IMG/VR virus record: IMGVR_UViG_3300007734_000692
Coordinates: 1 to 43,681 of that record
DNA length: 43,681 nt
Source: a virus
Direction: 5' to 3' (one strand)
The notes under the pieces were generated by a model, which worked only from the letters and a program-made list of their open reading frames with translations, had not been told where the DNA came from and did no database searches. Shown here piece after piece: positions 12,044-43,681 of this stretch (the stretch's first letter is position 1; each line of letters starts with the position of its first letter). The position numbers and the translations under genes are program-made.

Positions 12044-14158
12044 TTAACGATAATGTAAACCTCCAGTTTCTGTTATGCCTAAATCAGGGATTGTCATTTG
12101 ACCAAATGGAGTTGGAAATTTCCATTTGCCCCCACGTTTTCTAGCAGCTTCTGCTTGTTGTATTTTAGTATTTCGTAATTGTTGTTCATAAATTTCTTGT
12201 TGTGGCGTCATCTTAGATGATCCTCCAAGTTGAGAAACAACTGCAACTGGGTTTGCAACTCTTGATGCATTTAAAGCACCTGCTACAGCCAACGCTGCTC
12301 TCGGTGCGGTTCGATTTAGAACCCCAAGACCCATTCCAACCACTGGAGCTGTTACTGCCCCAGTAGCGTATTCAGTGGCTACACGTTTTGCTGCTTCTCT
12401 TACATTACCTTGATGAACAGCTTGTCTAAATTCAGGATCAAATAAAGGAACAGAACCTGTAATATCAGTTGCAGTATTAAAACCAGTTTTTATAGCACGT
12501 TTAACTGCAGGCAAAGCTTTATTATACCCTTCAATTTGTTTTGCTTTAGCAGCAGTTTCAAGTAAAAGATTTCCTAAGTCAGCGGAACCCTGCGAAAAAT
12601 AATTATCTTTTCTTCTAAAAGCATTTGCTCCTAAATTTGCAGGGTTTAAATAAAAACGATCATTATTAATATTATCACTAACGGCAGCAGTGCGTCCTGT
12701 ACCTCCTAATTCCGGAATATTACGTTTCGAATCTACAGCTGTATTTATAGCTTTTTTTATTTGTTTAGGTGTATTAATCTTATCAAAAAGCTCTGAAGTA
12801 GGTAATTGATCTTTTCTGATAGAATGAAAATCATCTGTGAATGATCTTATTAAGCTTGTAACGGGCCCAGGTGATTGAAAGGCCGGATTCTCTGGTCTAG
12901 GTCCTATCAACCTTTCCAATCGTGAAGATAAAAGGTTCACAGCTGGTGTAGAAGGATTATTTCGTAAAGCATTTGCTTTATTTTCCCAATTGTCAAATTC
13001 AGTTTGTGCAGCAATTCGTAATGCATTTTGTTCTGGAGAGGTAAAAATTTGTTTTTCTTTTTCTATTTTATTTTGTATGTCTGGAACAAGACTTTCAATA
13101 TTTTTGTTTAATTCTGATGACCACAACTCTTTATTTACTGTAGGTACCAGTGGCGCATTCATTAATGAAAGATAATTACCGTAAGGAATTCCGCCTTTAT
13201 TGTATCCTCCTTCAATTCTTTGTGCTAAGGCAGGAGGATTATAATCATTTTCCATTATGCTTTTCCTTAAGTCATTACCTAAAAACTTACTTGAAGCAGC
13301 ATCTCTTATCTTTTTTCCTTCATAGGTAAGCTCATCAGAAAATTCAACATCGCCTTCTCGCTTAAATTGATTCCAGTTTTGATGAACTTGATCATAAAAT
13401 TCTTGTCCCCTTTGGGCCATTGTGTTAAACTCTTCTTGGCTAATTGGTGGACTAAGGAACGAGGCTACGTTATTTGCATCTCTAAACAAAGAAGAACCTC
13501 TAGCTGCACCGCGTTGTTGAACAAGAGTTCGGCCGCCCATCCTAGCTTGTAACAAAGCATCATTGTAGGCCTTATCATATATACCAAATGCATTAGTATC
13601 ATATGGAATCTGCTGTGTTAACTGATTAAGTCCAATATTTTTAGCAGAAAGTGGACTTGCTCCAATATTCTCTGCAATTGTAATTAATTCCTCACCTCTT
13701 AATGTATTACCTACATTTGCAAAATCGTGCATTGCATCATGAATTTTTAATTCGTTACCATAAGCGCTTCCTGTTGCCGGATTTATAACTTGCCCTGGGT
13801 CTTCTCCATGGAAGTATTGATTTAAAAAACGTTTGGAACGTTCGTTAACTGTTTCTGCGTCATATATATTTTTAGAAGGCTGTGTAAAATCAAATTCCCT
13901 TCCGAAAGGAGTAAGCCTAGGTTCTTCATGAGACGATTCAACGGGAACTTTGTCAGGATAAAGTTCATCAAAATCTGTAACAGGTAAACTACTTGCAGGG
14001 CCTTTTGGATATATAACTTCAATCTTACCTTCCGGGGTGGTAAAAAGATCAGGAGTTTTTCGAATAGGAAAAGTAGAGCCTGTCAACTCGTTAGGCGTAA
14101 CATTTTTAGCAAATTCCTGAGCAAACTGACGAGGATCAAAAAAACTAGAGGCAGGCAT
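12044..14158 (-). CDS. Large hypothetical protein, probable virion component
   Basis: 704 residues, minus strand, convergent with the polymerase gene (25 bp between stops). The N-terminus R-Q-F-A-Q-E-F-A-K-N is followed by long polar, helical and Asn/Pro-rich segments with no known domain. Near the C-terminus (about 610-660) is an Ala/Val/Gly-rich hydrophobic stretch that could cross or disturb a membrane. Its size, orientation and composition suit a virion or internal head protein. No catalytic motif is seen. Confidence 0.65.
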   Translation of the reverse strand: MPASSFFDPRQFAQEFAKNVTPNELTGSTFPIRKTPDLFTTPEGKIEVIYPKGPASSLPVTDFDELYPDKVPVESSHEEPRLTPFGREFDFTQPSKNIYDAETVNERSKRFLNQYFHGEDPGQVINPATGSAYGNELKIHDAMHDFANVGNTLRGEELITIAENIGASPLSAKNIGLNQLTQQIPYDTNAFGIYDKAYNDALLQARMGGRTLVQQRGAARGSSLFRDANNVASFLSPPISQEEFNTMAQRGQEFYDQVHQNWNQFKREGDVEFSDELTYEGKKIRDAASSKFLGNDLRKSIMENDYNPPALAQRIEGGYNKGGIPYGNYLSLMNAPLVPTVNKELWSSELNKNIESLVPDIQNKIEKEKQIFTSPEQNALRIAAQTEFDNWENKANALRNNPSTPAVNLLSSRLERLIGPRPENPAFQSPGPVTSLIRSFTDDFHSIRKDQLPTSELFDKINTPKQIKKAINTAVDSKRNIPELGGTGRTAAVSDNINNDRFYLNPANLGANAFRRKDNYFSQGSADLGNLLLETAAKAKQIEGYNKALPAVKRAIKTGFNTATDITGSVPLFDPEFRQAVHQGNVREAAKRVATEYATGAVTAPVVGMGLGVLNRTAPRAALAVAGALNASRVANPVAVVSQLGGSSKMTPQQEIYEQQLRNTKIQQAEAARKRGGKWKFPTPFGQMTIPDLGITETGGLHYR

Positions 14159-14693: not shown

Positions 14694-15653
14694 TTATTGC
14701 TGCTGCCAGGGTTCTGACCAGGATTTTCCGTATGGATCAGTAGACCAGCTTGCTGGCCTAATCTGTCCTGGTCCATATAAACTACTATCCTCTGCTGGTT
14801 GATAAGCATTCAACTGGGAATCAATAAAATCTTTAGATCGTTTTAAAATGCTTGCTTCTTCTTTTTGCATGGCAGGATTTAATGCATCCGAAAGAATTGT
14901 ATTTAGTTGAAGCCTAGTATCTGAACCAAACTCATTATTAAACCAGCTACTCGGATTGTAAGGATCGTGAGATTTAGCTGGAGCAACTAAAGGTTTATAA
15001 AAATTGCTAAAGGTGTCGTCTACGTAAGACATCGGGTACCCCTTATACCAAGGTGCATTTGTATAGTCTGTTGGACTTAGTTCTGGTTTATCCAACGTAA
15101 ACTCATTTAAAAATTGTCCAGCTGCACGTTGTCCTTCTACTTCTTCCTTAAAACGTTTTCTACCTTTTTGATAAGCGTACTCCAAAGCTCCGGGTCTATT
15201 TTTAAAAAATGCTTTACGAAGTGTGTTAAAGTCTGCAGGCACCTCTTTTGATGCGTCTATTGAGTTGTCTAAACTATGTCCTGCTTCATGGAACAATGTG
15301 CCCAAACTTGTTTCACTATTTTTGTTAAACTCAAGAACCCTATTGTCTTTATTGTTAAATGGGTTTTGTGGATTAAACCCACCAGCCACGTCCAATGGCG
15401 TGTCTTTTGGTAACGGTACTATGTTGAATTTAAGTCCGCTTTTTTCTTTTAAAAAATTAAGTGCTTTCTGACTTAAATCTGATTGTTCAAATGAACCATT
15501 ATCTATAGTTACTGGACCTGCAACACCTTTAGAACCAAGTAAAGCACCAGCTTGCCCTAAATCGTTGTCTGTTTGTGTGTTCTCAGGTTCATTGTATTTT
15601 AAATGTAAAGGCATTGAAAAAAGATTATTCATTCCTGTTTCTGTTCTAAGCAT
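14694..15653 (-). CDS. HExxH zinc metalloprotease-like protein
   Basis: 319 residues; starts with M-L-R-T-E-T-G-M, and the second Met (residue 8) is an alternative. L-G-T-L-F-H-E-A-G-H-S-L-D has H122, E123 and H126 as the canonical zinc/catalytic HExxH set. E170, E171 and E173 (K-E-E-V-E-G-Q-R-A-A) lie about 45 residues on, where gluzincin-type peptidases place their third zinc ligand. The C-terminal half is Pro/Tyr/Ser-rich. It is probably a phage-encoded peptidase, perhaps in the virion or for host-protein cleavage. It sits on the minus strand with the putative virion genes. Confidence 0.7.
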   Translation of the reverse strand: MLRTETGMNNLFSMPLHLKYNEPENTQTDNDLGQAGALLGSKGVAGPVTIDNGSFEQSDLSQKALNFLKEKSGLKFNIVPLPKDTPLDVAGGFNPQNPFNNKDNRVLEFNKNSETSLGTLFHEAGHSLDNSIDASKEVPADFNTLRKAFFKNRPGALEYAYQKGRKRFKEEVEGQRAAGQFLNEFTLDKPELSPTDYTNAPWYKGYPMSYVDDTFSNFYKPLVAPAKSHDPYNPSSWFNNEFGSDTRLQLNTILSDALNPAMQKEEASILKRSKDFIDSQLNAYQPAEDSSLYGPGQIRPASWSTDPYGKSWSEPWQQQ

Positions 15654-20322: not shown

Positions 20323-21633
20323 TCATCTTGATATTTCTTCCCAATCTACAGAAGCAAAAACACTTCCACCACCATCACTTGCAGTGACTAGTGTTAATTC
20401 AAAAGCAGTTGAAGTAAATGTATTTCTTTCTAATTGGAACTTAAACAAAGCTTCTTTTAATATGTCTACAGAATTGGTGCTCTGATTTGATGAAGAAAAA
20501 TAGCCACTTGCCAGCGTTCTACCGCCGGTAAAACTTGTTCCTGTAATGTTGTATTCAACAGCTGATTCCGATCCTGCACTAACCCAAGTGCCTCCAGTTG
20601 TTGCACCTGTTGCTATAACTTTCCAGTTATAGTTAACCCCATTGCCTGTCCCAAGTAAAGACAGAGTAGTCAAAATTATAATTGCATCTAAAAAATTTGG
20701 GGATGTTTTAAGACGAATTGAAATGAGCGGATAATATGTACCGGCTGTTGTCGTGGTTCTAGCTGCTGTAATAGGTATTGATATTGCTTGCTGTAATCCG
20801 CGTAGCTCGTAACCACCTTCTGATATTACAGTAGAACAAATCTGTTTTAGTGCGCTGCTGCTTGCTGTTGTTCCAGTGTTCTCAATCTCATATCGCAACG
20901 GCAACGATGCAGTTGTAATATAGGTTGACGTTATTAAATTTGCGTGATGGAATTGATGGCAAAGTATGAATTTACCGTCAATAACAAAGCCCATTCGCAC
21001 CGTACCTAAACCAAGCCACTCAATATCCATCCATAAAATCTGTGCCTTAGTAATATCTAAGGTCATTTTTGACGGGCCTGTGCCATCCATCTTGTCGTAA
21101 TTCCAAGATGATTGATTTACTTTTGTATCTACAGTGGCTCCAGACACATGGCTGCGCTCAACAAATGACAAAACTGTCCCACCTGTTCCGTCTAGCTCCA
21201 GAAACATTCCATTCTCATCTCCGTAGTAACCTAATCGTTGCCTAAGGTTTGCTTTTGCTGGAGACATTACAAATGTGGTCATCACCAGTAAAGACTTCCC
21301 AGGTAAATATGCGAATACTTTTGTTGTTTCTCGGTAAACCTTAGAACCAGAAGTAGTGGTGACACTTAGCTCTATTAGACCTTGATCTGCACTAAATGCT
21401 GCTGCACCGCCAGTTGCCGTTAACGTGTTCCAAAGACCGTTGTCCTTGTATCGATGGCTAGAATCGAACAGGGTTAATGGATTACACACCCTAAGTCGAC
21501 CAAAAGCATCCAAAGAGGTAGGTTTTTCTCCTGTACCTGTGTCAATATTAACCTTGAGCGGCTCCGAATCTAAAGAAGATATTTTTACTACTTCGTATCT
21601 GTTGAAATCTTTTGAATCAATAATGGTTGCCAC
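20323..21633 (-). CDS. Virion structural protein
   Basis: 436 residues, GTG start at 21633. Beta-rich, with D-A-F-G-R-L-R-V near the N-terminus and a central block (G-T-G-P-S-K-M-T-L-D, W-M-D-I-E-W-L-G-L-G-T-V-R-M-G-F, H-Q-F-H-H-A-N, L-P-L-R-Y-E-I). I recall this block as recurring in structural proteins of large tailed phages of marine bacteria. The C-terminus is Ser/Thr/Gly-rich. Probably a capsid-decoration, tail or baseplate component; which one cannot be told. Flanked by plus-strand replication genes. Confidence 0.7.
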   Translation of the reverse strand: MATIIDSKDFNRYEVVKISSLDSEPLKVNIDTGTGEKPTSLDAFGRLRVCNPLTLFDSSHRYKDNGLWNTLTATGGAAAFSADQGLIELSVTTTSGSKVYRETTKVFAYLPGKSLLVMTTFVMSPAKANLRQRLGYYGDENGMFLELDGTGGTVLSFVERSHVSGATVDTKVNQSSWNYDKMDGTGPSKMTLDITKAQILWMDIEWLGLGTVRMGFVIDGKFILCHQFHHANLITSTYITTASLPLRYEIENTGTTASSSALKQICSTVISEGGYELRGLQQAISIPITAARTTTTAGTYYPLISIRLKTSPNFLDAIIILTTLSLLGTGNGVNYNWKVIATGATTGGTWVSAGSESAVEYNITGTSFTGGRTLASGYFSSSNQSTNSVDILKEALFKFQLERNTFTSTAFELTLVTASDGGGSVFASVDWEEISR

Positions 21634-31048: not shown

Positions 31049-32032
31049 TTACGCAGGTGGATTAAAGGGGGTAGGTTTTGCGTATGGAGTTGGTTTATTG
31101 AAGGGTGTAGGTTTTGCGTAAGGCTTAGGAGTATAGGTATTACCACGAGTAGAAACAGGATCAGCTATTCTTTTTGTAGTATCAGAAACTTCTTGGGTTG
31201 TAGAAGGACGAGTGATCTGTGCTTTATAGGGCTCTTGTTTAAATATTTCAGCCATTTTTACTGCTTGAGATGGAGAAGAAGTATTTGAAGTAGCTACTGG
31301 AGTAGCTGCAGGAGTTGTTGCTGCAGGCGTAGGCGTAGGTGCAGGTGCAGGAGTTGCTGCAGGAGTCGTAGCTGCTGCTGCTGCTGCTGCTGGAGCAGGG
31401 GTTGTCGTGGATGCCACCGGAGTTGTTACTGGAGCTGCTGCTGCTGCTGCTGGAGTAGGGGTTGTCGTGGATGCCGCCGGAGTTGTTACTGGAGCTCCTG
31501 CAGCAGCTTTATCCAAAAGACGTTTCTTGGTACGATCTAACATATCAGGATCGTTCCATGCTTGTTTTTCTAACCCATAATTTTTAGCAATCTCTTCTCC
31601 AAGGGAAATTGAACCGCCATATTGATCCTTAGTGTTTCTAATGTATTCACCAATTTCATCGTCACTGAAGCCTTGTTTTTTTGCTTCTGCTAAATCTTGA
31701 TCACCAAATATGTCAGGGTCATTGCCGTATGACGTAGATAGTTTTTTGTCAGGTGTACCATACCTAGACCATACTTGATTAGGAAGATTTAAATTTTTTG
31801 CAATATCATCTCCTAGTTGTACATTATTTTTTCTAGCCCATTCCCCCATTTCAGCGTCAGAGTAACCAGATTTTTTTGCGTCTTCATAATCAACTGTACC
31901 AAAAATTCCAGCATCATTACCTCCAGCTGTTGACATCGGTTTTCTGTAATCAGAAGTAGATGTCTGTACTTTACTAGAACGTAAGCCTTGTACTGCAGCA
32001 AGGTAAGAAGGAACAGGAGAAGGGTTTGCCAT
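31049..32032 (-). CDS. Repeat-containing protein, probable virion component
   Basis: 327 residues. Two homologous ~50-residue units come first: one near 38-84 (G-N-D-A-G-I-F-G, D-A-K-K-S-G-Y-S-D-A-E-M-G-E-W) and one near 102-155 (G-N-D-P-D-I-F-G, E-A-K-K-Q-G-F-S-D-D-E-I-G-E-Y). A long Ala/Thr/Pro low-complexity linker (about 178-255) follows. The C-terminus repeats K-P-T-P-F-N / Y-A-K-P-T-P. This looks like a modular virion protein or tail accessory; no enzymatic motif. The linker DNA has a 60-bp tandem repeat. Confidence 0.6.
   Translation of the reverse strand: MANPSPVPSYLAAVQGLRSSKVQTSTSDYRKPMSTAGGNDAGIFGTVDYEDAKKSGYSDAEMGEWARKNNVQLGDDIAKNLNLPNQVWSRYGTPDKKLSTSYGNDPDIFGDQDLAEAKKQGFSDDEIGEYIRNTKDQYGGSISLGEEIAKNYGLEKQAWNDPDMLDRTKKRLLDKAAAGAPVTTPAASTTTPTPAAAAAAPVTTPVASTTTPAPAAAAAAATTPAATPAPAPTPTPAATTPAATPVATSNTSSPSQAVKMAEIFKQEPYKAQITRPSTTQEVSDTTKRIADPVSTRGNTYTPKPYAKPTPFNKPTPYAKPTPFNPPA
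31381..31500. repeat. 60-bp tandem repeat coding an Ala/Thr/Pro linker
   Basis: The unit 31381-31440 and the unit 31441-31500 differ at three positions. Each begins with a GCT/CTG trinucleotide run. On the minus strand they encode 20-residue blocks of the type A-P-V-T-T-P-x-A-S-T-T-T-P. The repeat keeps the frame, so copy-number changes would lengthen or shorten the linker. Confidence 0.9.
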
Positions 32033-32047
32033 GATACAAAAAATTAA

Positions 32048-33004
32048 TTAAACAGTAGTTGATTGAGGTGTGTTTTGTTTTTTGGCCAAGGCATCAAGAT
32101 ACTTCTGTTGATCTTCCGAAGCAGTCGAAGATAGTTTAAAGGGGGTTTGAGTAGAAGAACTTGAAGCTGTGGTAGATGAGCTACTATCAGGAACCCAAAA
32201 ATCTCCGCCAGCTTCTCGTGCATAGTATTTTGAAAAATCTGGATTCTCTGTTTCAGGTGAAGTTGTATAAAAATGTTCGCCAGTATTAATATTACGGTAC
32301 CGTTGTACTTGTTTAGTTCCTTGACCTGCAGATTTAAATGCTTTACCTAGTACGCCTTCAGCAGTATACCCTTGACTTTGTGCTGATTTAATTTCTTCCG
32401 GATCAGAACTTAGTAAATAATCGCCACTTTGACCACGCAACCTAGTCACATCAGCTGCACCTGCTGTTGTATCACCTGCTCCAAGCATATTAAATGCTGT
32501 TCCTTCAACATTCCAATCTGGGTTCTTTGTATCTTCAGCGGAAAGATTAGAAGAATATAAATGTTGACCAGTTTTTTTATTGAATAAGCGTGTAATAGGA
32601 GAAGTCGACTGAGTAGTAGAACTAGGAGTTGATGTACTGGCAGGTTGTCGAGCTGCGTTAACAGCCTTAACATAATCTTCTTGAGCATTTTGAGCAACCC
32701 CAGTCCAAGTTGCTCGTGAGGTTGCCCACGGATCAACACCACCGCTATTTGCTAGTTGTTCTTTGTCAGCAATAGGTAATGACGACAAGTAATTAGCCGC
32801 TTCTGTGGCGCGACCTTGTAGTTGATATTTATTTAGCTGGTCAGGGGTGCCTACTTCTTTATAACGTTGACCAATAATCTCGTTTGTTTTGTCTTCAATT
32901 TTTTTCCTTATGTCTTCACCGCGCTGAAGATCCTCGTTAGAAATTGTAGATATGTAAAGCTGAGAAGGGGATTGGGGTGGCGCAAAGCCGTATGTCGTGG
33001 CCAT
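32048..33004 (-). CDS. DUF5648-like repeat protein, possible host-recognition protein
   Basis: 318 residues. Two related blocks: R-L-F-N-K-K-T-G-Q-H-L-Y-S (about 138-150) with W-N-V-E-G-T-A-F, and Y-R-N-I-N-T-G-E-H-F-Y-T (about 236-247) with a similar follow-on ending G-G-D-F-W-V. The 'R-x-Y/F-N-x-x-T-G-x-H-x-Y-T' signature is that of DUF5648-type repeats, found in secreted and surface proteins and thought to form beta structures. Ser/Thr-rich linkers surround them. A role in surface binding is inferred. Located just upstream of the repeat protein at 31049, probably co-transcribed. Confidence 0.6.
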   Translation of the reverse strand: MATTYGFAPPQSPSQLYISTISNEDLQRGEDIRKKIEDKTNEIIGQRYKEVGTPDQLNKYQLQGRATEAANYLSSLPIADKEQLANSGGVDPWATSRATWTGVAQNAQEDYVKAVNAARQPASTSTPSSTTQSTSPITRLFNKKTGQHLYSSNLSAEDTKNPDWNVEGTAFNMLGAGDTTAGAADVTRLRGQSGDYLLSSDPEEIKSAQSQGYTAEGVLGKAFKSAGQGTKQVQRYRNINTGEHFYTTSPETENPDFSKYYAREAGGDFWVPDSSSSTTASSSSTQTPFKLSSTASEDQQKYLDALAKKQNTPQSTTV

Positions 33005-35375: not shown

Positions 35376-35732
35376 ATGATTACTTTCAAGTCTACCCCAG
35401 CTGAAGACACCATTTGCTTTGGCGCAAGCAAGTCAAGCAATTATTTTTCTGATAACAATTTTTGGTTTGATCAGGACAGCTCATTTGGCTGTACTCCTGT
35501 CGGTGTGTCTGGTAGTCGAATCAATTCACCTGCACACTACAATAAAAATGAGGACATTGAGTGCATAGAAGCAATTAAGGCTTCACTTGGCACAGAAAAG
35601 TTCCGAGGTTTTTGTCAAGGTAATGCAATTAAGTATTTGTGGCGTGCTGACCACAAAAACGATACTGTTGAAGACTTAAAAAAGTGCCGTTGGTATCTTG
35701 ATCGTTTGATTGCATCACACGGAAGTATTTAA
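35376..35732 (+). CDS. DUF3310 protein
   Basis: 118 residues. The C-terminal ~68 residues match the DUF3310 signature: P-A-H-Y-N-K, E-C-I-E-A-I-K, F-R-G-F-C-Q-G-N-A-I-K-Y-L-W-R-A, then K-N-D-T-V-E-D-L-K-K-C-R-W-Y-L-D-R-L. This domain is common in phages and has been called a nucleotide-kinase-like protein, without clear biochemical proof. The first ~50 residues are a poorly conserved extension. Last plus-strand protein gene before the late cluster; its end overlaps the 3' end of the minus-strand gene by 4 nt. Confidence 0.8.
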   Translation: MITFKSTPAEDTICFGASKSSNYFSDNNFWFDQDSSFGCTPVGVSGSRINSPAHYNKNEDIECIEAIKASLGTEKFRGFCQGNAIKYLWRADHKNDTVEDLKKCRWYLDRLIASHGSI

Positions 35733-36475
35733 ATGGTTTTACTGGAACCGAGACCACCCTGCTCTTGGTTCCAGTACCGCCAGAATCTACGTAAAGTTTC
35801 TTGAGAAGGATCAAATTCAAGCAATTTACGTTCCAAATATTCAATTGCTTTAACTTGATTAGGTGTTCCAAGATAACTTTCTCCAATATTTAGCAAACAT
35901 TGATTAAGCTGGCACTTGTGCTCAAAAAATAAAGGTACTTTTTTGTCCGGCGCCAAGTAAAAATTAAGTTCTACACGCCTACGTTCTTTTAATTTCGGGT
36001 CTACGTTTAAATAACGTGAGTTAATTAGAGGGCTCCATTCTTTAATAATGGATTTCTTACTAGCAAATGTATTTATTAACTCTAATAAATAAGATTCTTT
36101 AAACGCAGCAAGCCCGATACTATGAGCATAACTTAGTACGGCTGCTTTCTTTTTATCGTTTAAGTTAGCAAATACGTATTCTTGAATTTGTTTTGCAAAA
36201 ATTTTAAGATCCTCTACTAATTGTTTATTTATTTCTTCTATTGTTGACTTTGTAAAAAAATTAACTGCACGTTTATTTATATGTGTACTATCGTATCCAA
36301 TTTTATAAAATTCTTCTCCTTCGTTTTTATATGAACCAAAACGCCCAAAACCTAAGTAGATCCTGGGCGTTGCGTAACGTTGAATTATATTGATCCCGTC
36401 TTGATTTAAGAACGGCGGAAAAGATTCTTTAGGGGACGACAACGCTGCCGTTGTAGCTGACTTCCGAGTACCCAT
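35729..36475 (-). CDS. Lysozyme-like (GH24-fold) protein lacking the catalytic Glu
   Basis: 248 residues. Residues 58-175 follow the phage lysozyme pattern: Y-K-I-G-Y-D-S (for T-I-G-Y-G-H), D-L-K-I-F-A-K-Q-I, A-A-V-L-S-Y-A-H-S-I-G-L-A-A-F-K (for the A-L-x-S-F-x-x-N-x-G block), L-L-E-L-I-N and E-R-R-R-V-E-L. The F-E-G element that supplies the catalytic Glu is missing; that region reads Y-A-T-P-R-I-Y-L-G-F-G. A genuine GH24 endolysin is at 40239. This copy is probably a non-catalytic virion protein. It overlaps the upstream gene by 47 nt. Confidence 0.55.
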   Translation of the reverse strand: MGTRKSATTAALSSPKESFPPFLNQDGINIIQRYATPRIYLGFGRFGSYKNEGEEFYKIGYDSTHINKRAVNFFTKSTIEEINKQLVEDLKIFAKQIQEYVFANLNDKKKAAVLSYAHSIGLAAFKESYLLELINTFASKKSIIKEWSPLINSRYLNVDPKLKERRRVELNFYLAPDKKVPLFFEHKCQLNQCLLNIGESYLGTPNQVKAIEYLERKLLEFDPSQETLRRFWRYWNQEQGGLGSSKTI

Positions 36476-37387: not shown

Positions 37388-37732
37388 TTAATTTGCTGCA
37401 ATATTAAAAGCAACTTCCGCACTAGTTCCGCCAACCTCACGAAAGAAATTAGCACGTAGTTTTTTCATTGGAAAACCATACGTGTTAAATGCATAAGTTC
37501 CGTTCTGTGTAATTGTATTGGAGATCATTGCTCCAAAATTCTCACCATCCAAGCTTCCGTCCAGCCTAACAACTACATTAGCATTGATATTGGTTACAGT
37601 AACGTTCAAAGTATAGTTTCGTGTAGACAAGTAGTTGGTAGCGTATACATCAACAGTATCGGTAACTCCAGGGGCAGTCAGCGTAGGGAAGTTAAAGAAT
37701 ACTGTTTGTTGATAGCTTTCAAAAAAACTCAT
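37388..37732 (-). CDS. Small virion protein, paralogue A
   Basis: 114 residues. It shares with the next upstream gene the blocks V-V-V-R-L-D-G-S-L-D-G-E-N-F, F-P-M-K-K-L-R-A-N and a C-terminal A-E-V-A-F-N-I-A-A-N. All-beta, like head-fibre, decoration or tail-tube-associated proteins. 2 nt separate it from its paralogue, so the pair arose by tandem duplication. Confidence 0.65.
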   Translation of the reverse strand: MSFFESYQQTVFFNFPTLTAPGVTDTVDVYATNYLSTRNYTLNVTVTNINANVVVRLDGSLDGENFGAMISNTITQNGTYAFNTYGFPMKKLRANFFREVGGTSAEVAFNIAAN

Positions 37733-37734
37733 GA

Positions 37735-38085
37735 TTACCTAGCAGCAAAAACAAAAGAAACCGTAGGAGTGCCTGCTGTAATTGTAACCAGGTTGCCTCT
37801 AATGTATTTCAGTGGAATATTAGTGTAGCTAAGGAACGTGGTTCCATTAGCACTAATAGTAGTATTACCAGACGAGTTTAAGTTGAAGTAGTTTGTACCA
37901 TCTAAGCTGCCTTCAATCTTGACCACAACACTGGTGGTGATACTGGCAACAGTAATCTGAGCAACGTAATTAATTGGCGCAGACAAGTTTTGCTCAGAAA
38001 CCTTAAATGATTCTGTAGCACCTGTTGCGGTAAGCGGTGTAGCAGTAAAAAATATGCTATCAATAAAGGAAGGATCGTAGCTCAT
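37735..38085 (-). CDS. Small virion protein, paralogue B
   Basis: 116 residues. Corresponding blocks are V-V-V-K-I-E-G-S-L-D-G-T-N-Y, I-P-L-K-Y-I-R-G-N and T-V-S-F-V-F-A-A-R. Identity with paralogue A is limited to these blocks, so the duplication is old. Function unknown; a beta-sandwich virion protein is likely. Confidence 0.65.
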   Translation of the reverse strand: MSYDPSFIDSIFFTATPLTATGATESFKVSEQNLSAPINYVAQITVASITTSVVVKIEGSLDGTNYFNLNSSGNTTISANGTTFLSYTNIPLKYIRGNLVTITAGTPTVSFVFAAR

Positions 38086-38088
38086 GAC

Positions 38089-38559
38089 TTACTTCTTGTA
38101 ATCTAAGTTGGATTTTAACAGCCACTGATTCTTTTTGTGAACGCGACCACGCTCAACACCTAGATCCAGGGTCAACTGATCGCTAATTGCGTTGGACATA
38201 GTAATCAGTTCATTAAAACATTCAGCAAGTTCATTATGGTTTGTCGCCAGCTGTAGGATGATGCCTTCCTGATTGAAGCAATTTTCAAAAGGAAGCTCAG
38301 GAATATTTGAATATGTAAGGTCCATCACCGTCTTAGGTGTGGCAATATCAAGAGACCTTATGTGTTCAGCAATGGTATCGATACCTTCTTCCATTTCTTT
38401 ATAGATTCTTTCTGTCAGAAGGTGCAGCTCATAGAACTTGCCACCCATCAAACCCCAGTGTACAAGCTGTGTTTGGTGGTAAATGTTGACAGAATCCCTC
38501 AGACACTGCAACAAGAGGCAGTAACAAGGCGTCGTTTTATCAGTAGTTGCTTTTGCCAT
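38089..38559 (-). CDS. Dps-like ferritin-family protein
   Basis: 156 residues from the ATG at 38559; a GTG three codons upstream is possible. H34-W-G-L-M-G-G-K-F-Y-E-L-H46-L-L-T-E50 ... G-I-D61-T-I-A-E65 matches the Dps ferroxidase signature exactly in spacing (E. coli Dps H51, H63, D67, D78, E82). Dps proteins form 12-mers that oxidise and store iron and protect DNA from peroxide. All five metal residues are present, with Glu at the fourth-turn position. The C-terminal half is helical, as expected. In the late cluster, it could be packaged in the virion or act in the lysing host. Confidence 0.8.
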   Translation of the reverse strand: MAKATTDKTTPCYCLLLQCLRDSVNIYHQTQLVHWGLMGGKFYELHLLTERIYKEMEEGIDTIAEHIRSLDIATPKTVMDLTYSNIPELPFENCFNQEGIILQLATNHNELAECFNELITMSNAISDQLTLDLGVERGRVHKKNQWLLKSNLDYKK

Positions 38560-38561
38560 AA

Positions 38562-38834
38562 TCACCACAAATCGTTGCAGGCCCAGTATTTAGGCGTATT
38601 TTTGTCCATGGGCTTGTCGCATCCCATTCTAGCCCTGAAATTCTTTCTACGATCTTTGTCGTGGTGCTGCGTGTAGTCCTCATAACCGCGCCTACCATAA
38701 CGTACAATCTTTTCTTCTCCGTCATGGCAGGACTTGACTACCCACTTATGGGTGTCACCAGAGGGGGCACGCTGCGGCTTGTTGCACTTCATGTGCTCTT
38801 TTGCCAACCGTTTAGCTTTAGCGTGGTCAGCCAT
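38562..38834 (-). CDS. Small basic protein, DUF5754-like
   Basis: 90 residues. H-K-W-V-V-K-S, E-K-I-V-R-Y-G, Y-T-Q-H-H-D-K-D-R-R-K-N-F-R-A-R-M-G-C-D and T-P-K-Y-W-A-C-N-D-L-W form a pattern I recall from small phage and algal-virus proteins (DUF5754), often found with virion genes. Cys and His content suggests metal binding. Function unknown. It lies 2 bp upstream of the Dps-like gene on the same strand. Confidence 0.6.
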   Translation of the reverse strand: MADHAKAKRLAKEHMKCNKPQRAPSGDTHKWVVKSCHDGEEKIVRYGRRGYEDYTQHHDKDRRKNFRARMGCDKPMDKNTPKYWACNDLW

Positions 38835-38836
38835 GT

Positions 38837-39004
38837 CTAATTCCCTAAAGAAGGTGCATAAACTTCTTCTCCCTTAGTTGCCACGTCAAATCCAGATGGA
38901 AGCCGTTCTTTCTGTAGGCTACGGATACCAGAAACATATCGAGCCAGAAAATCTGCAGTTTTATTCTGATCTTGCTCTTGATCAGGTTGCAATCCATCCA
39001 ACAT
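38837..39004 (-). CDS. Very small hypothetical protein
   Basis: 55 residues, ATG at 39004, overlapping the HNH gene's end by 23 nt. The stop is 2 nt from the next start. Acidic N-terminus (D-Q-E-Q-D-Q-N-K), then a helix (A-D-F-L-A-R-Y-V-S-G-I-R-S-L). No family recognised. Confidence 0.55.
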   Translation of the reverse strand: MLDGLQPDQEQDQNKTADFLARYVSGIRSLQKERLPSGFDVATKGEEVYAPSLGN

Positions 39005-39392
39005 AAGCGTCCTCGCAAATATAAGGAATAGCTTGGTGCACAGCAGCCAGGTTTAAAGACCTCAGCTTTTGCTCAGTCCATTCCTTAATCTTATCAGCCC
39101 TTTCTTTAGTATATTTAGGATGTTCATCTGTGTACCAAAGATCAAGTTTTTGCGAAGCCTTGGAAGAGTTACAAGCGTTGCAACAGCAAGCAAGGTTGTT
39201 TCTTGAACTATGCCCACCCTTGTGCTTGGGAATAATGTGATCAATCGTGGCCGTATCTGAACACAATTGTCTATCACAATAAGCACATTTCCATTCCCAC
39301 GCCTCAAAAATACTTTGCCTAAACTTCTTTCGAGCAAGTTTAGGCGTAAGAACAATCAGCTCAGCTAAAAGTTCGTTTTCAGTGTGAAACAC
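38982..39392 (-). CDS. HNH endonuclease
   Basis: 136 residues. C36-A-Y-C39, I-D51-H52-I-I-P-K-H-K-G-G-H61, N65/N66, C71-N-A-C74 make a complete HNH with structural zinc. The C-terminal ~55 residues are helical. It is small enough to be a free-standing homing endonuclease; its place between virion genes fits that, though HNH proteins can also assist DNA packaging. Confidence 0.85.
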   Translation of the reverse strand: MFHTENELLAELIVLTPKLARKKFRQSIFEAWEWKCAYCDRQLCSDTATIDHIIPKHKGGHSSRNNLACCCNACNSSKASQKLDLWYTDEHPKYTKERADKIKEWTEQKLRSLNLAAVHQAIPYICEDAYVGWIAT

Positions 39393-39442
39393 GGTAGGTG
39401 CATGCTTCTAAGTAAAAGATATGGCGCATACATCTACCTGAC

Positions 39443-39451
39443 TGCTATGAT
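39443..39451 (+). promoter_or_regulatory. Extended -10 promoter for tRNA (TGCTATGAT)
   Basis: TG-C-TATGAT is 31 bp upstream of the tRNA's first base, so a 5' leader of about 25 nt is predicted. No -35 seen. Confidence 0.45.
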
Positions 39452-39482
39452 TACATCATGCTTGTTTAGCCAACGAGTATTA

Positions 39483-39558
39483 CGGAGTATCGCCTAACTT
39501 GGTCATGGCACCTGCTTTGGGAGCAGGAATAATCTCAGTTCAAATCTGAGTACTCCGA
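39483..39558 (+). tRNA. tRNA-Pro (anticodon UGG)
   Basis: A full cloverleaf: acceptor CGGAGTA (39483-39489) with TACTCCG (39551-39557), 7 perfect pairs; D stem GCC/GGC; anticodon stem CCTGC/GCAGG with loop TTTGGGA, anticodon TGG; T stem CTCAG/CTGAG with loop TTCAAAT; discriminator A39558. The C1-G72 pair and A73 are right for bacterial proline tRNA. CCA is not encoded (ATT follows). The anticodon arm is like cyanobacterial tRNA-Pro. The variable loop is six bases. It is on the plus strand, inside a minus-strand cluster, and overlaps the 3' end of the facing gene by 24 bp. Confidence 0.93.
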
Positions 39559-39768
39559 TTGCCAACTCATATCTTCTGCGGGATCGTACTCAGCTTGCTC
39601 CAGGAGACGCAGTATGTAGTAATGCAGCCGATCCGTTACCCAGCGGAGGTCTTCATCCGACACGTCGCATAAAATGGCGTCTAAGCGTATCTCACGGGTT
39701 GGTTGGCACACGTGGTCCGCCACAAGTTCTAATGCTTTATAGCGGCCACGAGTAAAGTCTCCTAACAT
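39535..39768 (-). CDS. Small hypothetical protein overlapping a tRNA
   Basis: 77 residues. Acidic and helical (L-R-W-V-T-D-R-L-H-Y-Y-I-L-R-L-L-E-Q-A). Its last seven codons and stop are antisense to the 3' part of the tRNA-Pro gene. No family recognised. Confidence 0.6.
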   Translation of the reverse strand: MLGDFTRGRYKALELVADHVCQPTREIRLDAILCDVSDEDLRWVTDRLHYYILRLLEQAEYDPAEDMSWQSEYSDLN

Positions 39769-39769
39769 A

Positions 39770-39985
39770 TTAATCCGGACTGAGAGCGCGGTAGGCTTCG
39801 ATCATTTCTTCCTCATTTTCAGTAAACTTTTGCTTAAGAACATTAAGAATTTCTAAAGCTCCCTGAACCTTTAAGTACCCTTCTTTGGTAGCCATGAGGT
39901 TGGCTTCCATTGTTCGAATATCTATGGTCAAGGTTGCAAGCTGTTCCTGCAGGCCTTTTTCCAGTTCAGTTACGTGGCTTTCCAT
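39770..39985 (-). CDS. Small coiled-coil protein
   Basis: 71 residues, nearly all helix with heptad-like spacing (V-T-E-L-E-K-G-L-Q-E-Q-L-A-T-L). 1 nt from the next gene. Possibly a lysis accessory or virion chaperone, given its place by the endolysin; no family recognised. Confidence 0.6.
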   Translation of the reverse strand: MESHVTELEKGLQEQLATLTIDIRTMEANLMATKEGYLKVQGALEILNVLKQKFTENEEEMIEAYRALSPD

Positions 39986-40015
39986 TTGTGGATAAGATCT
40001 TTAACGATCTTAACA

Positions 40016-40225
40016 CTACCTTTTAGCCAGTGGGGTAAAAAGACCAGCAAAAATTTCTATAAGTTTGTAAAACTTAGATAGAAAAATTTCAATAAAGGTT
40101 GAATTTTCTTTAATCTTAGGACTAAAAGTTAAGTTAATAATGGCAATAGCTAACCCATGCAAAGCCAGAATTACGTCTGTAATACTTTGTATATGGCTGG
40201 TAAGTTGTTTTAAAAAATCATCCAT
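40016..40225 (-). CDS. Small membrane protein, candidate holin
   Basis: 69 residues from the ATG at 40225; an upstream in-frame start overlaps the endolysin gene. One clear membrane helix (I-T-D-V-I-L-A-L-H-G-L-A-I-A-I-I-N-L) and a second amphipathic one (F-I-E-I-F-L-S-K-F-Y), ending in a basic tail. Located 13 bp downstream of the endolysin gene on the same strand, where holins often sit. The role is inferred from position. Confidence 0.5.
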   Translation of the reverse strand: MDDFLKQLTSHIQSITDVILALHGLAIAIINLTFSPKIKENSTFIEIFLSKFYKLIEIFAGLFTPLAKR

Positions 40226-40238
40226 TACTATTAAACCT

Positions 40239-41477
40239 TTATTTAAAAATCCAGCCCCAACCGCTTGCGCCACCGCCGTAAAACAGGCGTGGATTTAAGT
40301 TTTTAAAACTGTAATGCTTATTCTTTCCTGCTCCTAGCGATTGATTCTCCCATACGCCATTAATTAAATCAAGATCACCATAAGGATCTTGCACTAACCA
40401 GTAACTATCACTGTACCCAGTAATAACAATAAAGTGCCCGCCGCCCCTAGGTGCATCAACTGTACCATGATGAAGTATGCCTACAGCGACAGGTTTCCCT
40501 TTGTCTATCTGTTGTTTAATGTCTCGTACATCTAAATTTGTATAGAATTTAGCGTCAACTTTAAGAGCATTTAATGCACCATAGTGAGCTTCTCTGGTAG
40601 TAGTATCGCCGTATTGATTTACAATTTCTAAATAATCTGTATCATCTTTTATTCCTTTTACGTTGAGATATTTTAAACACATTGCAATTGAACTTGTTTG
40701 ACATTGGCGCCATCCTTCCGGACCATTATCTTTTTGATCAAAAAAGGGGAAGTCACGTAGATAACGCAAGTCGCCGTCTTGAGAGTAAGTAGAAATTTTA
40801 GGTGTAAGACCACTCCAGTGGTCGTCATAAATCCACCATTTACCTAACTTAAAACTCATTTCAAGTAAAGTATGTCCGTCACGCTTTTCTAGCACTTGAT
40901 TTGCTGGATACGTCCTGCCTTGATATACCTTTGCTTTTAAATCATTAGGTAGTTCTGAAACTGGCTTAGGTTCTTTCTTGAACCAAGTCTGCTGCAAGGA
41001 AGTAACATCAATAAGTTTTATAATCGGTGTAGTTGATACGGGTTTACAAAATAAGTCAACCTCAGCTCCACGACGACGAGCTAGCCCTTCAATAATTTCT
41101 CCGTTACCTCCCTTTGCCCAACGCGGTAGCTCTTGACTTACTGCAATATTAGGATTCTCTCCACTATTAAGCCGCTTACGTAATGTTGATTCTCCAAGCG
41201 CACCCTCACCAACATTGTAAGTAAAACTTACAAGCGCATCAAACTGATTTTGATTTAACGGTACGGCAATTAATTTACTGACTGCTTGTTCAAATCGAGC
41301 CAGATCTTTTTGCAATAACTGCTCTGCTTGAAGTTCTGTTATTGTCAGGACTTCATGAACGTCGTCACCAGTGTGTCCGTAGCCTATGGTTAAGACACCA
41401 ACCACATCATAGTAAGAAGTAAGACGTAGGCCTTCAAACTTTTTTATTAAGTTTAAACCTGGTTTAGATGTCTTCAC
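40239..41477 (-). CDS. Endolysin: GH24 lysozyme plus C39-like cysteine peptidase
   Basis: 412 residues. Domain 1 (1-145): phage-type lysozyme with catalytic E15 (K-K-F-E-G-L-R), D24 (Y-Y-D-V) and T30 (L-T-I-G-Y-G-H-T), and the S-F-T-Y-N-V-G-E-G-A block; it cuts the glycan chain. Residues 155-235 are a linker that may hold an SH3-like wall-binding unit (G-R-T-Y-P-A-N, L-L-E-M-S-F-K-L-G-K-W-W-I-Y). Domain 2 (240-412): a C39-type papain-like peptidase with C259 (W-R-Q-C-Q-T-S-S), H348 (G-G-G-H-F-I-V-I-T-G-Y) and D364 (V-Q-D-P-Y-G), expected to cleave peptide bonds. Two activities in one protein would open peptidoglycan in two ways. Confidence 0.88.
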   Translation of the reverse strand: MKTSKPGLNLIKKFEGLRLTSYYDVVGVLTIGYGHTGDDVHEVLTITELQAEQLLQKDLARFEQAVSKLIAVPLNQNQFDALVSFTYNVGEGALGESTLRKRLNSGENPNIAVSQELPRWAKGGNGEIIEGLARRRGAEVDLFCKPVSTTPIIKLIDVTSLQQTWFKKEPKPVSELPNDLKAKVYQGRTYPANQVLEKRDGHTLLEMSFKLGKWWIYDDHWSGLTPKISTYSQDGDLRYLRDFPFFDQKDNGPEGWRQCQTSSIAMCLKYLNVKGIKDDTDYLEIVNQYGDTTTREAHYGALNALKVDAKFYTNLDVRDIKQQIDKGKPVAVGILHHGTVDAPRGGGHFIVITGYSDSYWLVQDPYGDLDLINGVWENQSLGAGKNKHYSFKNLNPRLFYGGGASGWGWIFK

Positions 41478-41508
41478 TGCAAGAGGTTGGTACTGATCTC
41501 ACTCAATA

Positions 41509-42057
41509 CTAACCGATACCTGCACTTGTAGTTCCGGAATTAAATGCAATTGTATCTATGCCAGCAGATTTTGTTCCGGTAGAAGGCGGCTCTGTAGGCG
41601 TAGGATCTTCCCCAAGGGCAGGCCAAGCAGAATATTCAGGAGAAGTTACAAAGGCAGCAAGCTCCTCTGTCGTCTTAGTTGCTTTGATCGCTGAAATCTT
41701 AAGACCAGATGAGCTACGAATATTTTCCCGCCAGGTTTTAACGGCTGGATCAGCTGCCTTACCGTTATCAACTGAACGAACAATCATCCAATCAGTAGGA
41801 CTTAAAAGGGTATTTGCGGTGTAACGAGTCTGATCAACCCACTGAGTTACAAGTTGACCGTGATCCTTGGGCAAACCTGGACCCCAATAGAAGCGCTGAT
41901 CGTACCAGGGGGACGGAGGATCAGGTACTTCTGTGATACCAATAGCCTTACGATCTTCTGGTGAAGCTAAGCGAAGCCAGTTGGCAGGGTACTGAGTTCC
42001 ATTTGGTGTTTCAAAAGGAACATCAAGTGCTAATGGCTTGCCGTTTAGAAGAAACAT
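41509..42057 (-). CDS. Tail-fibre-assembly-like protein
   Basis: 182 residues. The N-terminus (F-L-L-N-G-K-P-L, Y-P-A-N-W-L-R-L-A-S), Y-D-Q-R-F-Y-W-G and the later L-L-S-P-T-D-W-M-I-V-R ... W-R-E-N-I-R follow the layout of phage proteins annotated as tail fibre assembly or tail chaperones (DUF4376-like). The tail is Thr/Ser/Pro/Gly-rich. Close to the tail-fibre fragment at 43266, which fits. Confidence 0.55.
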   Translation of the reverse strand: MFLLNGKPLALDVPFETPNGTQYPANWLRLASPEDRKAIGITEVPDPPSPWYDQRFYWGPGLPKDHGQLVTQWVDQTRYTANTLLSPTDWMIVRSVDNGKAADPAVKTWRENIRSSSGLKISAIKATKTTEELAAFVTSPEYSAWPALGEDPTPTEPPSTGTKSAGIDTIAFNSGTTSAGIG

Positions 42058-43265: not shown

Positions 43266-43681
43266 TTAGCGTGCTCTAGAGAACTGGAAGGGGTTTTCGG
43301 CGAAGGCGGCGTAGATGTAGGTAGCTCCATTACTGTTGTACGCGGACAGTGATGTACGCAGCTTGAACCCGTTACTGAGAATGTCGTGATAATAGTTTGT
43401 GCTTGTAGTTTCTTGAGTTGATTGATTAGGCATCAACAAGGCATCGACGACGTTAAATGTATTGCGAGCAGTATCGTGCATCACCCAGCTATCACCGGAC
43501 GCCGAAGAGTTTTTAATCATCAACCACCTCGGCCTAAACCCGGTATAAACAAACGGCCCATCTGTGCTGCCATTGCCGGTGTAGCTGCCGAAAGAAGAGT
43601 ACCCGGCTACTGGGGCGAAGCAGTAGGCGATATTGGTGCTGCCATTTGTGTTGATCTCTGCGGCATTTCCAATCGAGAACC
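43266..43681 (-). CDS. Tail fibre protein, C-terminal part (cut by window edge)
   Basis: The frame runs from the right edge (first full codon at 43679-43677) to the stop at 43266-43268, so about 137 residues are visible; the ATG at 43523 is internal. G-S-Y-T-G-N-G-S-T-D-G-P-F-V-Y-T-G-F-R-P followed by L-M-I-K-N-S and a beta-rich body is, as I recall, the DUF7483-type domain of cyanophage tail fibres. It ends Y-I-Y-A-A-F-A-E-N-P-F-Q. It would bind the host surface. Confidence 0.75.
   Translation of the reverse strand, partial: FSIGNAAEINTNGSTNIAYCFAPVAGYSSFGSYTGNGSTDGPFVYTGFRPRWLMIKNSSASGDSWVMHDTARNTFNVVDALLMPNQSTQETTSTNYYHDILSNGFKLRTSLSAYNSNGATYIYAAFAENPFQFSRAR

Follow-up and report, generated by a model that had tools for sequence, protein, structure and literature searches.

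The locus considered here lies in a viral contig of 43,681 bases, the whole of which was analysed and is referred to below as the window. A gene in it resembles those of the Dps mini-ferritins, by which iron and peroxide are rendered harmless, and the question is whether the resemblance is genuine and what such a protein would do for a phage during infection.

Family assignment and predicted fold

The open reading frame runs on the minus strand from an ATG at 38559 to a stop codon at 38089–38091, so that the position given for it in an earlier note on this DNA is correct. In several close relatives (e.g. loci L012 and L013) an in-frame stop codon lies immediately 5' of the ATG; the start giving 156 residues is therefore correct and an upstream GTG at 38568 is wrong.

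38089..38559, minus strand: Dps-family mini-ferritin gene, 156 amino acids (Pfam, PHROG, PDB, AlphaFold2, Foldseek and alignments)

A Pfam search matched the protein to the Ferritin family (4.7e-8, exceeding the cut-off), with a weak match to DUF5856 under the cut-off. PHROG 3636 (phage DNA binding protein, Dps) was matched with an E-value of 1.9e-16 over residues 19–152, aligned to positions 15–147 of the 149 in the profile and hence spanning most of the family length. The best PDB match by phmmer was the Dps structure 8ff9 (1.1e-15). The score against the NCBIfam Dps equivalog PRK09448 (NF006975), 44.1 bits, does not reach the curated cut-off of 114, placing the protein in the Dps family and outside the E. 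coli-type equivalog.

A monomer model was calculated with AlphaFold2 from the window protein and 29 homologues from metagenomic viral contigs (mean pLDDT 90.1, pTM 0.86). It comprises four long helices (A, residues 9–36; B, 40–69; C, 97–124; D, 128–153), with a further, short helix (79–82) in the loop between B and C, which is the arrangement of a Dps bundle. Foldseek found 140 matches in the PDB with E<=0.001, and the 50 of these 140 that were listed are all Dps or Dpr mini-ferritins, Thermosynechococcus Dps among them; the top match is P. aeruginosa Dps PA0962 (8ff9; TM 0.82, rmsd 2.0 Å). The structure prediction proposed in the earlier note as a check thus gives a four-helix Dps subunit, and with the agreement of the Pfam, PHROG and PDB searches the gene is identified as that of a genuine Dps mini-ferritin, as had been claimed.

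Phage-encoded Dps is already established. It is known in Lactobacillus phages (PMC6669764), in gut 'Gratiaviridae' and other phages (PMC8008677) and in Kuravirus SU10 (PMC4281155); Dps genes are annotated in database records of, among others, S-SRM01 and Aeromonas phages, and the isolated relative Synechococcus phage S-EIV1 also encodes one. The last, the DNA-binding ferritin-like protein AHV82153.1, shares with the window protein its lineage, PHROG 3636 and the ligand positions described below, but is only 22% identical to it, has 63 residues before the first ligand histidine and a leucine rather than a tryptophan after it, and is encoded beside sulfate adenylyltransferase, unlike the window gene. 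The DNA starvation/stationary phase protection protein of S-SRM01 is likewise a cyanophage Dps of PHROG 3636, but shows 26–28% identity and belongs to a Kyanoviridae genome of 241 kb, in which the neighbours are annotated as porin and histone H1. SU10 CDS67 has the same ligand set and PHROG, with a longer N-terminus and a gene placed among the middle genes; the Dps of SU10 and that of Privateer were both detected by mass spectrometry, and both phages are enterobacterial podoviruses, unlike the window phage.

Among cellular proteins, PA0962 is the best match in both sequence and fold, with the same ligands, a glutamate at the +4 position and no basic tail, although identity in the fold alignment is 30%. 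Its assembly, H2O2 oxidation and DNA cleavage have been shown by experiment, whereas the window protein is known from its sequence and a model. Cyanobacterial Dps (e.g. Thermosynechococcus 2c41) have the same fold and ligand positions, but identity to the window protein is at most 34% among 386 Cyanobacteriota genomes. A recent origin of the gene from the sampled cyanobacteria was rejected on this best identity of 34%.

As a separate observation, the Kuravirus Dps gene is labelled 'integrase' in several public records (e.g. KF981730.1 and MZ398243.1), apparently an annotation error.

The metal site

The earlier note had described a five-residue ferroxidase signature. His34, His46, Glu50, Asp61 and Glu65 (numbered from the ATG at 38559) are indeed present in Dps spacing, at successive intervals of +12, +4, +11 and +4, and the pattern H-x11-H-x3-[DE]-x10-D-x3-E occurs once in the window (all six frames, 87,358 residues). 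The same spacing is found in E. coli Dps, at H51, H63, D67, D78 and E82.

Four of these residues, the ferroxidase ligands H, H, D and E, carry the signature. His34, His46, Asp61 and Glu65 are unchanged across 32 aligned phage homologues, and the same positions are unchanged in a joint alignment of 43 cellular and 13 phage Dps. They correspond to His37, His49, Asp64 and Glu68, the residues that bind iron in P. aeruginosa Dps (PMC10002758), in which the +4 acidic position is not among the four. Position 50 is glutamate in 32 and aspartate in eight of the 43 cellular Dps; it is glutamate in the window protein and Gly, Asn, Asp or Gln in some phage homologues. Since it varies among phages and has no ligand role in P. 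aeruginosa Dps, position 50 is dispensable to the signature, and the claim stands for the other four residues, which are conserved in phage and cellular sets and match the iron ligands of 8ff9. It was considered whether relatives with Gly, Asn or Gln at position 50 have lost the ferroxidase site; this was rejected, because the only protein ligands in P. aeruginosa Dps are the other four residues, which never vary.

By homology to 8ff9, the ferroxidase site would lie between two subunits. The invariance of the four ligand positions across the phage homologues suggests that selection acts on the ferroxidase function. The window-type dps genes are under strong purifying selection, with dN/dS of 0.018–0.082 among pairs with unsaturated dS.

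Gene neighbourhood, host and likely function

The genes around dps that bear on its context are as follows.

35729..36475, minus strand: phage lysozyme, dps cassette (Pfam)
37388..37732, minus strand: small protein related to that at 37735–38085 (homology)
37735..38085, minus strand: small protein directly downstream of dps, homologous to 37388–37732, with a weak PHROG match to major tail protein
38562..38834, minus strand: DUF5754 gene, directly upstream of dps (Pfam)
38982..39392, minus strand: HNH endonuclease, on the far side of the dps/DUF5754 pair (Pfam)
40239..41477, minus strand: lysozyme and peptidase C39-like endolysin, dps cassette (Pfam, PHROG)
43266..43681, minus strand: tail fibre or virion structural protein, C-terminal part, at the window edge

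Two bases separate the DUF5754 stop codon from the dps ATG. DUF5754 adjoins dps in most relatives, with the order swapped in the oceanic clade; it was not found beside dps in loci L030, L036 and L070–L073. In the relatives dps is accompanied by HNH, DUF5754, two lysozymes and small tail-like proteins, all on one strand. By gene order, then, dps sits in a conserved lysis/tail cassette, and this order makes late expression, as presumed in the earlier note, likely.

DUF5754 itself is a small basic protein of no assigned function that is present also in a relative lacking dps and in S-EIV1. The tandem related proteins at 37388–38085 (minus strand, 114–116 amino acids) lie kilobases apart in several relatives, which suggests a variable insert region between the copies.

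The window derives from an S-EIV1-like phage. In an ORF comparison 20 of its ORFs match S-EIV1, including those for DNA polymerase, primase, exonuclease, HNH and DUF5754. A close relative of 82 kb, G007 (IMGVR_UViG_3300027747_002377), has a Dps 99% identical to that of the window, a terminase 50% and a head protein 70–72% identical to those of S-EIV1. Four out of 15 related contigs carry psbA; in G001 it lies some 6 kb away from dps. Kinship with S-EIV1 and psbA in the relatives make the cyanobacterial host supposed in the earlier note well supported and, for this contig, probable.

Taken with the family, the predicted subunit fold, ligand conservation, purifying selection and gene order, this lineage and the psbA of the relatives favour a ferroxidase role: the Dps of this S-EIV1-like cyanophage probably oxidizes Fe2+, with H2O2 as the likely oxidant, and stores Fe3+ during infection. 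The subunits would assemble into a 12-mer, in which His34 and His46 of one subunit and Asp61 and Glu65 of the other would hold iron at each twofold interface. Fe2+ bound there would be oxidized, probably by H2O2, and the Fe3+ kept in the cavity, so that both Fenton reagents would be removed during replication and assembly of the phage in an illuminated cell, to its presumed benefit. P. aeruginosa Dps, which has no basic tail, carries out H2O2-driven iron oxidation and protects against H2O2 (PMC10002758).

Protection of DNA, which the earlier note had also suggested, fits the protein poorly if it is to be direct and through classical tail binding. Most studied Dps bind DNA via tails with basic residues (PMC9103930). 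The window protein lacks the long lysine-rich N- or C-terminal tail of E. coli-type DNA-binding Dps, having eight residues (MAKATTDK) before helix A and three after position 153, and is acidic (pI 5.5, net charge about −6); in the oceanic homologues the C-terminal tail is 16 residues long and mixed in charge. Such a short tail on an acidic protein renders classical tail-mediated binding unlikely, and any DNA protection would then be indirect. Other activity on DNA is possible, as P. aeruginosa Dps, the closest solved structure, cleaves DNA in vitro despite having no basic tail (PMC10002758). That the window protein acts chiefly on host or phage DNA, by binding or cutting, nevertheless appears quite unlikely given its charge, the few residues before helix A and the unvarying metal ligands, which indicate selection on the ferroxidase site. 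A place in or on the virion, where Dps might shield packaged DNA or bring iron or a peroxide sink to the next host, would agree with the position of dps among lysis and tail genes in the relatives. A Dps-family protein was detected by mass spectrometry in CsCl-purified Privateer virions (PMC7881722), which allows a role in the particle for the window protein too, and SU10 Dps was detected in PEG-concentrated phage, although the authors caution that this sample may contain non-virion proteins (PMC4281155). However, the SU10 gene is assigned to the middle genes, S-EIV1 dps adjoins sulfate adenylyltransferase rather than structural genes, and the gene is missing at the syntenic locus in the relative G417; a virion role is thus considered unlikely.

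Instead of removing peroxide, Dps might store iron that has been salvaged from the host and supply it to enzymes of the phage or host. Dps cages do store iron and cyanobacterial cells are rich in it, but ferritins hold far more iron than these cages, which are generally linked to peroxide, and the surroundings of dps include no recognized iron-dependent partner gene; storage as the main purpose seems very improbable.

Two Dps types and other features of the lineage

The locus reveals no new kind of system; a well-conserved Dps joins the auxiliary genes of a widespread, little-studied cyanophage lineage, and the natural variation around it is its most useful feature. What is newer is that an S-EIV1-like phage has one or the other of two deeply diverged Dps types, which lie at different loci, and that one relative is without dps at the syntenic site. 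The S-EIV1 type is represented by a separate set of 50 viral loci. Cross-searches covered 30 contigs fetched via either type, 20 of which are marked as S-EIV1-like by their terminase. The presence of both types in one genome was rejected, as each search in these contigs and in those selected by head protein matched only the type already present or nothing, with at most one Dps detected on any contig.

All six contigs of at least 77 kb selected by head protein have exactly one Dps (two of the window type, four of the S-EIV1 type), in a small sample of which three were also reached through their Dps; G424 and G425, with terminal repeats, are among the six. Dps was found in one of nine contigs of 51–68 kb selected in the same way and was undetected in eight of 52–67 kb, which are possibly incomplete. 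In G417 (67 kb) the interval between HNH and DUF5754 is about 240 bp and contains no dps, and no Dps was detected elsewhere on that contig. Because of G417 and the eight contigs with no detected Dps, dps is regarded as accessory and not essential to the S-EIV1-like lineage. With relatives that naturally have dps, lack it or differ in its type, the role of iron and peroxide control in cyanophage infection becomes testable.

An AU test does not reject a single clade for the two S-EIV1-lineage types (p 0.50) in trees dominated by long branches, and the trees favour neither two acquisitions nor one old gene that moved. Repeated swapping or re-acquisition of the same peroxide and iron function at two loci, selected by host or habitat, may be suggested tentatively, as somewhat less than probable. 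The mixed Dps alignment was too diverse for pattern analysis, and a first scan of the genome contigs with the phage Dps alignment found no relatives.

Several other genes of the window deserve mention. A gene at 20326–21633 (minus strand) encodes a 436-residue virion protein common to many large Synechococcus cyanophages, with 62–66% identity to HMO-2011 and cyanophage proteins (Puniceispirillum phage HMO-2011 best) and no S-EIV1 match in the ORF comparison; it has probably passed between marine phages of unrelated lineages. A dCMP deaminase gene is flanked on the opposite strand by two genes, of 704 and 319 amino acids, at 12044–14158 and 14694–15653 (minus strand); these two have no PHROG match, no Pfam match above the cut-off and no counterpart in G007. 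At 31049–33004 (minus strand) adjacent genes of 327 and 318 amino acids run counter to the local strand; the second contains DUF5648 (2.5e-19), whereas for the first no family scored above the cut-off and G007 has no match. The DNA polymerase of G007 (39008–41650) has 880 residues compared with 616 in the window, with 263 extra residues, holding AGYLAGIFDGEGN and ending ...AHHN before Cys, within sequence that is 97–99% identical; the extra segment resembles an intein that carries a LAGLIDADG homing endonuclease.
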